Of a DNA stretch of 60,435 bases, positions 9,436 through 51,483 are shown one piece after another. This DNA comes from Clostridiales bacterium. Lineage in GTDB: Bacteria; Bacillota; Clostridia; Lachnospirales; Lachnospiraceae. Each line of letters begins with the position of its first letter. Positions within the stretch are counted from its first letter, which is position 1. The stretch spans positions 1 through 60,435 of the forward strand of contig JAJQAA010000055.1 of NCBI GenBank assembly GCA_021204045.1, written 5' to 3'. The translations under genes were made by a program, and so were the position numbers. The notes beneath the pieces are model-generated. The model was not told the origin of the DNA. It made no database searches and worked only from the letters and a program-made list of their open reading frames with translations.

Positions 9436-9456
9436 ATGCGGTATTTCCTCCTTTTT

Positions 9457-9500
9457 GACCCTGGCATCATCATTTTATAGCCTGCTTTCCGGATTGTCAA
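9457..9500 (-). promoter_or_regulatory. Promoter of the rRNA methyltransferase with shared start-site motif
   Basis: On the minus strand TTGACA (9500-9495), a 17-nt spacer and TAAAAT (9477-9472) precede the sequence ATGATGATGCCAGGGTC (9473-9457), which sits at the predicted transcript start. The same 17-mer occurs at 51429-51445, in front of another minus-strand operon. Confidence 0.75.
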
Positions 9501-21135: not shown

Positions 21136-23073
21136 TTAATCTGCAGTTTCCTTGATCTCGCCACGCCGGAACGCATCCACCAGCTCGCGCAGATCGGTAA
21201 TCTGTTCCTGTAATTCCCTTCCCTTGTCCGTGTCCGCAACCATCACGCGGTTTTTCATTTTCTCCACAATCGCCACCCGTGGCGTACTCTCCCGGTTGGG
21301 ATCAAACGGTTTGTGCTCCGCCAGCGCCAGATGCCGTGAATTATAGATCAGCGTATATCCGGCGATCCCCGTGTGTTTCTGGTAAGCTTTGGATAAACCG
21401 CCGTCGATGACAAACAGCCTGCCGCCTCCCTTGACCGGCGTCTCCCCATCCTTAATTTTGACCGGCACATGCCCGTTTATAATATGAGAATCCTCCGGCT
21501 TCAGGCCAAATTCCCGAAGGATCCGGCAGCAGACCTCTTCCTTCTGACAAAGTTGATAATAAGGGTTCAGATGCTCCTTGCGAACGGATTGGTCCTCAAT
21601 AAAATAATGTTCAAATGTCCGCATCTTGTCTTTGCCAAACACCGGTGATTTCGCGCCGCACCAGAGGTACCACATAAAATCCAGCGCCCTGTCCTTCCCC
21701 GGCGTGCCGTCCGGCTGCAAATATGCCATGCGAATCTCCTCGCTGATGCGGTCCATCAGCGCGCGGCCGCCAAGCTTCTCACCGTCAAAATCGATTTCCA
21801 CAAAACTTCCATCTGCCCGCATCGGAATACAGCCGTGATACAGCAGATTGCCATTGTAGCATTTGTATAAAGCTCCATGGGTATACAGGAAACGAATATG
21901 CCGCTGCAAAAGCTCGCTGTGGCGGAAAGAAAGCCGCAGCGTATACAGAAGTTCTTCCTCATCCTTTGAAAGCTTCAACGGATCATTCGGATCAATGGTC
22001 GGAAAACTCATATCCAGCATCGGATATTCCTTCCCATCGACCGTGACGACGCCGCGCCCGTAATCCACCGCCTCCAGAAGTACGCGATCGTCCATCTCAT
22101 ACTCCGGATGCCTGCGGATAATCTGGCCCTCCACCTTGAGCTGCATGATCGCGATCGCTTTGTGCATCTTGGCCGCCAGCCCCGGATCCACCGCATCATA
22201 AATATTTTCATCAAGAATCTTCGGTGAAAACAATGTACACGGATCCTCCCGGTATACCCGGGCCGCGAACATGGACAGCGGCCGCAGATTGATGCCATAA
22301 CCGTCCTCAAGCACGTCGAAACTGTTGTAGCTGATCGCGATGCGCAGTACATTGCAGATACAGGCCACGTTTCCGGCCGCCGCGCCCATCCAGGAAATGT
22401 CATGGTTGCCCCACTGAACGTCCACATCGTGGAACTGCATCAATTCATCCATAATGATATCCGCCCGCGGGCCGCGGTCAAAAATATCGCCGATAATGTG
22501 CAGATTATCAATCGTCAGATCCCTTATCAACTCACTGATCGCCACGATAAACTTGTCCGTAATCCCGGTATCAATAATCGAGCGAATGATCTCATCATAA
22601 TAAACACGCTTATCTTCGTCGTTATAATTGACATGGAGTAATTCATCGATAATATAGGCAAATTCCGCCGGCATTTTCTTGCGAACCTTGGAACGGGTGT
22701 ACTTTGAACCAATCTCCTTACAGATCTGCACCAGGCGGTAGATCGTGATCCGCTGCCAGTTTTCCGTATACTTGCCGTCATGAATCAAACGCGCCAGACT
22801 GCGATCCGGATAATAAATCAGGTTTGCAAGCTCGACCTGCTCCTCCTCCGGAATGACATAGCCGAACGTCTCTCGGATCTTCTCCCGGATAATACCGGAA
22901 GCGCTGCGCAGCAAATGAATAAACGCTTCATACTCGCCGTGCAGATCGCTGAAAAAGTATTCCGTCCCCTTAGGAAGTCCGCAGATCGCCGTCAAATTAA
23001 TAATCTCACTGGACGCTGCCTTTATGCTGGGGTATTGCCTCGCCAGCAGCTTTAAATACGCCAGGTCTCTCAT
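21136..23073 (-). CDS. fbp: Class III fructose-1,6-bisphosphatase
   Basis: This 645-residue enzyme hydrolyses fructose 1,6-bisphosphate to fructose 6-phosphate for gluconeogenesis and sugar-nucleotide supply. It matches the Firmicute class III family (PF06874), with metallophosphatase motifs FFSDLHGEYEAF (about 38), GDIFDRGPRAD (about 197), QWGNHDISWMGA (about 220), INGHVPVK (about 545) and the KAYQKHTGIAGYTL stretch near 575. The ATG at 23073 has GGAGG 5 nt upstream; the frame also opens at a TTG 12 nt earlier. It is preceded by a heavily structured leader and followed 56 nt later by the DUF1700-polysaccharide genes. Confidence 0.96.
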   Translation of the reverse strand: MRDLAYLKLLARQYPSIKAASSEIINLTAICGLPKGTEYFFSDLHGEYEAFIHLLRSASGIIREKIRETFGYVIPEEEQVELANLIYYPDRSLARLIHDGKYTENWQRITIYRLVQICKEIGSKYTRSKVRKKMPAEFAYIIDELLHVNYNDEDKRVYYDEIIRSIIDTGITDKFIVAISELIRDLTIDNLHIIGDIFDRGPRADIIMDELMQFHDVDVQWGNHDISWMGAAAGNVACICNVLRIAISYNSFDVLEDGYGINLRPLSMFAARVYREDPCTLFSPKILDENIYDAVDPGLAAKMHKAIAIMQLKVEGQIIRRHPEYEMDDRVLLEAVDYGRGVVTVDGKEYPMLDMSFPTIDPNDPLKLSKDEEELLYTLRLSFRHSELLQRHIRFLYTHGALYKCYNGNLLYHGCIPMRADGSFVEIDFDGEKLGGRALMDRISEEIRMAYLQPDGTPGKDRALDFMWYLWCGAKSPVFGKDKMRTFEHYFIEDQSVRKEHLNPYYQLCQKEEVCCRILREFGLKPEDSHIINGHVPVKIKDGETPVKGGGRLFVIDGGLSKAYQKHTGIAGYTLIYNSRHLALAEHKPFDPNRESTPRVAIVEKMKNRVMVADTDKGRELQEQITDLRELVDAFRRGEIKETAD

Positions 23074-23101
23074 ATGCTCCTCCAATACACTTCACCCAAG
23101 C

Positions 23102-23217
23102 GGGCAGAGCCTCGAAAAGCCTTCGGCTTTTCTCGGTCGCTTCGCTCGCCATATAGATATCCCTGTGCCCGCTCGTGCAAGCACGGCGGTCACCCGGATA
23201 TCCATCTGGCTCTGCCC
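23102..23217 (-). ncRNA. Structured 5' leader of fbp, candidate cis-regulatory RNA
   Basis: GGGCAGAGCC (23217-23208, minus strand is its partner) and GGCTCTGCCC (23111-23102) form a perfect 10-bp closing stem over 116 nt. Inside it are GATATCC/GGATATC (7 bp, around 23195 and 23160), a CGTGC/GCACG hairpin, and an AAAAGCC-GAA-GGCTTTT hairpin (near 23115-23131). The element begins about 3 nt after the predicted transcript start and ends about 24 nt before the fbp ribosome site. I do not recognise it as a known riboswitch. An alternative is a small palindromic repeat that landed in the leader. Confidence 0.6.
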
Positions 23218-23226
23218 TTTGCGTAC

Positions 23227-23254
23227 ATTTTACCACATTTTCGGTTTTTGTACA
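23227..23254 (-). promoter_or_regulatory. Probable fbp promoter
   Basis: On the minus strand TGTACA (23254-23249), 16 nt and TAAAAT (23232-23227) give a moderate promoter. Its start near 23220 lies directly ahead of the structured leader. Confidence 0.55.
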
Positions 23255-23430
23255 GCGGCGCATGAGATTGAATTCCGGTTTTTACTGCATTTTTTAACGG
23301 TTTTGTGGATTTAGATTGTTGACTTTGAGATACAGAACGGCTACAATATCGTGCATATCGATTGTTTCCGGTATAATGAAATGTGGGAAATTTGATGTGG
23401 GAAAAACAGCGAAAAGGAGCGGTTTACAAG

Positions 23431-51315: not shown

Positions 51316-51343
51316 GACTCTCCTCCATTTTCCTGAGTAATTA

Positions 51344-51446
51344 ATGATGCTGCGAATCTCAACGTCATGAATCGGAATGCCCCAAAGAACTCGCTTCGCG
51401 TCCCAAACATTCGACTCATGTTTTTTTCGACCCTGGCATCATCATA
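51344..51446 (-). promoter_or_regulatory. Structured leader and promoter region of the dehydratase set
   Basis: GACCCTGGCATCATCAT (51429-51445) matches exactly the promoter-proximal sequence at 9457-9473. A -10 TATGAT lies at 51446-51441 on the minus strand. The transcript then has a long-range pairing ATGATGC (51344-51350) with GCATCAT (51436-51442), and an inner stem CATGAATCGGAATG with CATTCGACTCATG (51366-51379 and 51408-51420, one bulge, one wobble). I do not recognise it. It could be a regulatory leader or a small repeat element. Confidence 0.55.
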
Positions 51447-51483
51447 GCACGCTTTTCGCCACAATGGAACAAAAAATTAGATA

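Follow-up and report, generated by a model that had tools for sequence, protein, structure and literature searches.

The short, highly structured stretch of DNA before the FBPase gene fbp of a Clostridiales bacterium was put down in a preliminary description as a leader of unknown class, laid out like a metabolite-sensing or protein-binding RNA or, on a rival view, as a palindromic repeat, and it raises the question of whether the fold serves fbp, serves many genes or chiefly propagates itself. Within the window (the whole 60,435-nt stretch that was analysed), fbp (class III, FBPase_2; PF06874, E 2.5e-288) occupies 21136..23073 of the minus strand, with a likely ATG at 23073 and a reading frame open from TTG 23085, so that the transcript is the minus strand. 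Upstream on the same strand, a -35-like hexamer TGTACA (23249..23254, 4/6 match) stands 16 nt from a TG-extended -10 box TAAAAT (23227..23232, TG at 23234-23235); this promoter, TGTACA-16-TAAAAT with TG at 23254-23227, came from a scan of 601 bases that gave 3 promoter-like sites against 0.9 in shuffled sequence, and the plus-strand ORF divergent from fbp has a promoter-like site of its own at 23319-23347. Judged by spacing, transcription would start at 23220 of the minus strand, 7 nt past the -10 box, with 5'-AAAGGGCAGAG..., and the predicted RNA, from about 23220, begins AAAGGGCAGAGCC.

Structurally, the leader fills 116 nt of the minus strand (23217-23102) between the promoter and fbp, and the perfect 10-bp closing stem, 7-bp inner stem and hairpins of the preliminary description are all present at the positions it gave. 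The 5' strand of the closing stem P1 (GGGCAGAGCC, 23208..23217) pairs with its 3' strand (GGCTCTGCCC, 23102..23111), the inner stem reads GATATCC/GGATATC, and P1 encloses a long P2 hairpin (23153..23205) with a conserved apical GCUUGC, the sequence of which differs among copies with pairing retained, a nearly invariant linker or mini-hairpin GGCGAGCGAAGCGACCGAG (23133..23152) and a P3 hairpin AAAAGCCGAAGGCUUUU (23114..23132), all on the minus strand. The core GCGAGCGAAGCGA (at most two mismatches) is confined to the fbp element. Energetically, plus-strand positions 23102-23254 fold at −67.9 kcal/mol (z −8.2, 0/200 shuffles as low), and the strand running into fbp (minus, 23220-23102) at −64.4 kcal/mol (z −7.66). 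A structured leader between the promoter and the fbp ribosome site (GGAGGAG, 23077..23083, minus strand) is thereby borne out; the ribosome site itself lies outside the fold and is not masked at the window copy, and a sequence scan of this copy revealed no terminator downstream of the fold.

Genomically, the element is dispersed. With the 116-nt promoter-free sequence as query, BLAST matched the own genome 17 times and 60 relatives not at all; on inspection, the 17 matches resolved into 11 full-length loci (C33, which is the window copy, C54, C46, C30, which has a second copy in tandem, C13, C40, C23, C3, C34, C18 and C60), one truncated locus, C5, and tandem copies that are incomplete, and two further loci, the mini-copies C64 and C57, came from a covariance model. 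The total is thus at least 14 loci, 11 full-length and three truncated, a list that represents the yield of these searches and may miss shorter remnants. All 14 sit 5' of co-oriented genes, and 13 of these genes are not fbp: besides FBPase, the products comprise an AI-2E-type transporter, an OmpR-type response regulator, LepA, a solute-binding protein, a DUF4015 protein, FtsH, GlgC, a PBP1A-like protein, an Spx/MgsR-like protein and the product of the C60 ORF (a weak methyltransferase match), together with three named by reading only, namely a second response regulator (C5), a cardiolipin-synthase-like protein (C64) and a formyltransferase-like protein (C57). A -10 hexamer matching at five or more of six positions precedes 13 of the 14 loci (4/6 before C64), and just seven have, at a spacing of 16-18 nt, a -35 that agrees at four or more of six positions.

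The reverse question, whether fbp genes elsewhere carry the element, was answered with R1, a covariance model of the element that, like the broader model R2 used further below, includes 20 promoter columns. Among 80 fbp loci (named records of relatives, mostly Lachnospiraceae), none matched R1 at E 0.1; in 59 of them, the 130 nt that precede fbp contain TACTAT or TACTAC, often as TATGnTACTATA, and the same box precedes fbp in same-genus genomes (plus-oriented loci examined). R1 matched two of 23 sister genomes, G005 and, weakly and doubtfully, G001, in a search whose filters lose weak matches. Given the empty fbp loci and the sparse sister genomes, the window copy looks like a lineage-specific gain, and a leader dedicated to fbp or gluconeogenesis, as the preliminary description had it, does not agree with the 13 other loci of the own genome or with the fbp loci of relatives.

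The pairing scheme is retained from copy to copy. Two-sided changes occur at 16 of 42 pairs within the own genome and at 39 of 42 over 28 sequences from seven genomes, so the covariation that the preliminary description had proposed to look for is there. In that alignment, which was fitted to the structure, and so favours it, and which draws 14 of its 28 rows from the own genome, 94.3% of cells pair (64.7% shuffled) and covariation reaches 0.754 (0.201 shuffled, at most 0.147 when slid). P2 is almost wholly different between the C33-type and the C3/C60/C34-type copies and still paired, and the linker and apical loop stay near-invariant while P2 drifts. There are 52 G-U cells against 11 A-C cells, and folding favours the sense over the antisense strand in 25/28 short and 79/80 canonical Clostridiales-1 copies (see below), these being counts of related rather than independent copies; the excess of G-U cells and the stabler sense strand point to selection acting on the RNA strand. 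Covarying stems always before fbp had been named beforehand as the sign of regulation and many scattered copies as the sign of a repeat: the copies proved numerous and unrelated to fbp, as a repeat would have it, yet they covary and are nearly always 5' leaders, as a regulatory RNA would be.

Positionally, we examined 93 short copies, namely the 11 from the own genome, 16 of 17 R1 loci from other genomes (the doubtful L073 was dropped) and 66 R2 copies, the latter being the best-scoring ones (26 loci plus the next 40 among the matches listed). With genes called by a codon model, the start of a co-oriented gene follows 88 of the 89 assessable copies, among them all 11 full-length copies of the own genome; of the rest, one faces a gene end (L337), two have no gene called and two have too little sequence. 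Cruder ORF methods put fewer copies before gene starts, with 76 starts and 14 ends, and 54 starts, 22 ends, 13 ambiguous and four too short, respectively, for the short copies, and 49 starts and 23 ends, and 37 starts, 32 ends, six ambiguous and five too short, for 80 canonical copies. The codon model was chosen because the cruder methods called antisense ORFs where known genes lie, for example at the C46 response regulator and at glgC, and because the script behind the second count of each pair passed over valid starts. Outside the own genome, ten copies stand before deoB (twice), aspS, dnaE, pfk, tkt, gyrB/parE, purM, glgB and thrS, and others before two more response regulators, each with an output domain (L068, L358), a gene for a receiver domain (L348) and one for a GTPase that resembles lepA at its start (L321).

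A -10 of at least 5/6 precedes 77 of the 93 short copies, compared with 15% of control windows, and is absent from 16. Exactly 17 nt above this -10, a -35 of at least 4/6 occurs in 26/77 copies (shuffled mean 3.7, maximum 9). Sequences upstream of the -10 do not resemble one another (identity 0.284 within and 0.271 between genomes), from which it follows that the shared element starts at about the -10 and that a third of the loci supply their own in-phase -35. Because of the 20 promoter columns in R1 and R2, the promoter linkage of copies found by these models is partly selected; the 11 full-length own-genome copies were found without promoter columns.

Taxonomically, R2 matches 149/299 genomes of the window's family (E 0.001), which the closest named fbp records suggest to be Lachnospiraceae, and 13/291 genomes of the class (E 1e-5), the own genome counted in both. 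Matches of R1 and R2 in other genera follow the same plan, with each genome tending to its own P1; over the 93 short copies, the P1 3' strand is 0.70 identical within and 0.43 between genomes.

The preliminary description could not match the element to a known riboswitch, and at the curated threshold it belongs to no Rfam family: Rfam at its gathering thresholds gave no match to the window copy, and a search of the whole window at E 1 returned just two weak, implausible families, RF01699 (Clostridiales-1) not among them. The RF01699 match emerged in searches of 3-kb loci, where the program's filters are laxer: the model aligned to the window copy over its full length (1-166) at 34.6 bits, below the gathering cut-off of 48, with E 1.2e-4 when 4227 families were run against 10 kb. 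RF01699 likewise ran full-length in three of seven other short loci (30.7-37.9 bits for the four of eight) and hit one of 12 further short loci (31.6 bits), or 5/20 overall. In reverse, R2 matched 48 of the 80 RF01699 loci at E<=0.1, with a best E of 4.3e-5 and 51 rows in all, three of which cover little beyond P2. Of 61 genomes, the own one among them, 31 contain RF01699 itself and 23 contain it above the cut-off, with at least 38 matches in G012, 10 in the own genome (the seven among the matches listed all over cut-off) and none in 14 control genomes. Clostridiales-1 was tabulated as probably an RNA, probably not cis-regulatory and probably not a switch (Weinberg et al. 2010, PMC2864571). 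Both forms have a P1 uniting the two ends, a long P2 with apical GCUUGC (GYUYRC in some copies) and a P3 hairpin, and occur in several copies per genome in overlapping hosts. They differ in length (about 116 and 166 nt), in the sequence of P1 and in the fixed -10 and leader position of the short form, which lacks the second long arm between P2 and P3 (AACAUGAG...CGAAUGUU) and has a linker or mini-hairpin of about 16 nt there instead. Because it falls short of the cut-off and has no second arm, we regard the element, on the strength of sub-threshold reciprocal matches, as a short, divergent relative of Clostridiales-1, a distant cousin rather than a member.

A second leader of the window bears on this relationship. 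The preliminary description had found a motif of the fbp element in the leader at 51344-51446 as well, and the 9-mer GCGAAGCGA does occur there on the minus strand; neither R2 nor RF01699 matches this leader. What appears to link the two leaders is, rather than the 9-mer, the Clostridiales-1-like left end of the latter (ATGATGATGCCAGGGTC), which, in a possible degenerate relative at 51337..51450 (minus strand, leader of a leuD-like ORF named by reading), is identical at 20/21 nt to the canonical own-genome Clostridiales-1 copy L128 (0/300 shuffles); the remainder is degenerate, still closing via ATGATGC/GCATCAT. A solo Clostridiales-1 left end, GATGCCAGGGTCAAAAAG, lies at 9451..9468 (minus strand) after TTGACA-17-TATAAA and before a ribosome site and gene start, and several similar solo or shortened ends were noticed in the genome (L303, L313, L314).

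Evolutionarily, the full-size form carries marks of transposition. The canonical ends of Clostridiales-1 are GAT...GGGTCAAAAGG, and, by reading, its left and right ends are inverted repeats, GATACCAGGGTCAAAAGG and GATGTTGGGGTCAAAAGG. We analysed 80 RF01699 copies (20 chosen plus the next 60 among the matches listed), of which 29 have a recognisable right end (CCTTTTGACCCCAACATC, at least 14/18), and 24 of these 29 are flanked by exact target-site duplications (TSDs) at least 6 bp long, where shuffled pairings would give 0.66; the right end was defined on the first 20 copies, where TSDs flank 10/11, and TSDs recur in 14/18 among the 60 new ones. RF01699 itself thus looks mobile. The codon model places 57 of 75 assessable canonical copies before a gene start and 18 not. 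A -10-like hexamer is found in 19 of the 24 TSD-bearing copies, four of which also have an in-phase -35 of at least 4/6, and over all canonical copies a -10 is found in 50/80, 13 of these with a -35; the case for reading the canonical TSDs as targeting of -10 boxes is weak, and a choice of AT-rich targets may explain them. In the window copy, the 10-bp inverted repeat of P1 corresponds to the terminal inverted repeats of MITEs. In the short form, repeats of at least 10 nt occur in 3/93 copies (1.06 expected; the window copy is not among them) and of at least 9 nt in 5/93 (1.84 expected), so that a -10-box TSD, clear by eye in L066, L070 and L077, was rejected as a general feature, not being above chance over the 93. 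A pattern scan of eight genomes showed no autonomous transposon with canonical ends among the matches listed, searches of plasmids with a canonical copy and of phages with the window copy gave no match, and the joined flanks of six insertions in G025 found no close relative for an empty-site comparison; no two of 23 same-genus genomes are more than 88.6% identical in fbp. In G022, at ~777-1446 of L386, Clostridiales-1 inverted-repeat ends flank some 670 bp in which a second inverted repeat is nested and a broken, apparently IS-like ORF lies; the whole may be an IS inside a solo palindrome.

From these observations, we posit that the element, a relative of Clostridiales-1, is a 5' leader anchored to promoters that spreads within genomes and acts as the structured 5' end of mRNAs at many dispersed loci, a reading that we hold to be on balance probable. 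Its unit would be a cassette of a sigma-A -10 box (TRTGnTATAATGTnCGnAAA) followed by 110-150 nt of RNA, the 5' end of which would pair with the 3' end (P1) around a variable P2, a near-invariant linker and a short P3. As the distribution of copies suggests, the cassette would spread within a genome, becoming the first part of unrelated housekeeping mRNAs, and the copy at 23102-23217 would have become the leader of fbp in this way; the full-size Clostridiales-1 would be the MITE-like element, with terminal inverted repeats and TSDs. Transcribed from its -10, the structured 5' end, with about three predicted unpaired nt before P1, could shield the mRNA from decay at the 5' end, or the leader could insulate the ribosome site, possibly via a general binding factor, and a role in 5'-end stability or through such a factor is what we predict as probable. 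A riboswitch would be associated with one pathway and have an expression platform; here, the genes share no evident theme, no terminator follows the fold and the ribosome site lies free of it at a variable distance, which makes a dedicated metabolite switch, and with it the metabolite sensing of the preliminary description, unlikely. The unrelated genes and the missing terminator, taken with a 10-bp stem near the predicted 5' end, favour a general function at the 5' end or a binding factor. More tentatively, and with rather less than even confidence, Clostridiales-1 and the short branch together may be mobile elements that insert at the -10 boxes of working sigma-A promoters, become folded leaders and are then kept under selection as RNA, so that every lineage would remodel the leaders of its own set of housekeeping genes.

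Against this stands the explanation that the element is a purely selfish MITE- or REP-like repeat, whose hairpins matter as DNA (in recognition by a transposase) and whose leader position is tolerated rather than useful. It accounts for the multiple copies, the genome-specific P1, the tandem partial copies, the TSDs of the related canonical form and the burst confined to one lineage (0/60 relatives by DNA); it does not lead one to expect the bias toward the RNA strand seen in G-U cells and sense-strand stability, nor a single orientation before gene starts in 88/89 assessable short copies, nor short-copy TSDs at chance level, and we consider it unlikely.

Somewhat more doubtful is a global cis-regulatory RNA, in which one protein or small molecule would bind the GCGAGCGAAGCGA linker and the GCUUGC loop and coordinate a regulon of growth genes. 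The near-invariance of both sites despite the drift of P2, the constant leader position and the housekeeping and glycogen or sugar phosphate genes downstream are what such a regulon would display, but the named genes have no common theme, sister species do without the element (0/80 fbp loci; R1 in 2/23 sister genomes, one weak) and the window copy has neither a terminator nor a masked ribosome site. The sugar-phosphate riboswitch specific to fbp that was first suggested draws on the strong fold immediately upstream of this gene; the distribution of copies, with BLAST matching the genome 17 times, other genes behind 13 of the 14 loci and no match at the fbp loci of relatives, rules it out, and we give it next to no probability. 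The preferred reading, that of a promoter-anchored leader spreading within genomes, has counterparts among known systems, with which it was compared by description. Correia elements are promoter-bearing MITEs with sigma-70-like promoters upstream of genes (PMC10969869), and they too are small inverted-repeat units that carry promoters before genes; in the present element, unlike these, the promoter would read through the element, which would thus form the folded 5' end of the mRNA, and pairing of the RNA strand is conserved. The BOX elements of pneumococcus are stem-loop repeats of modular and variable build; they are transcribed, enter 5' untranslated regions and can alter downstream expression (PMC3049150), a similar arrangement in other hosts and with other modules, and the parts of that account available to us mention no anchoring at a -10. 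In a survey of structured motifs, mobile/repeat sequence candidates (MRSC) are multi-copy motifs judged selfish, inconsistent gene orientation being one sign (PMC11109978); the present element is likewise structured and present in many copies per genome, and differs in that its short form is co-oriented in all but one assessable copy.

Open-access literature searches found no description of Clostridiales-1 as mobile, as a leader or with a later role. Mobile promoters are an existing concept. The TSDs of the full-size form and the leader placement of its short relative give the orphan Clostridiales-1 a testable identity, that of a mobile structured-RNA element supplying mRNA 5' ends, the short form of which is found in about half of the sampled genomes of the family. 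If true, this would be a route by which many unrelated genes gain the same leader.

Several copies depart from the common arrangement. Extra P1 3' strands lie downstream in 26 of the 93 short-copy loci, against 1.1% in the control, and in L031, L032, L030 and L027 tandem partial copies of P3 and the P1 3' strand follow the element and offer several possible partners to each P1 5' strand. Three tandem short-element matches (G553:C18:9719-10111) were seen in a genome of another family. L335, L381 and L337 lack a -10 and come after a T-run or after what looks by eye like a tRNA gene. In genome G030, at L067 1501-1866 (minus strand), a copy of the element lies between a T-box-like leader (87.3 bits, below the family's cut-off of 93) and thrS, an arrangement which indicates that another leader can take the place of the -10 in front of a copy.
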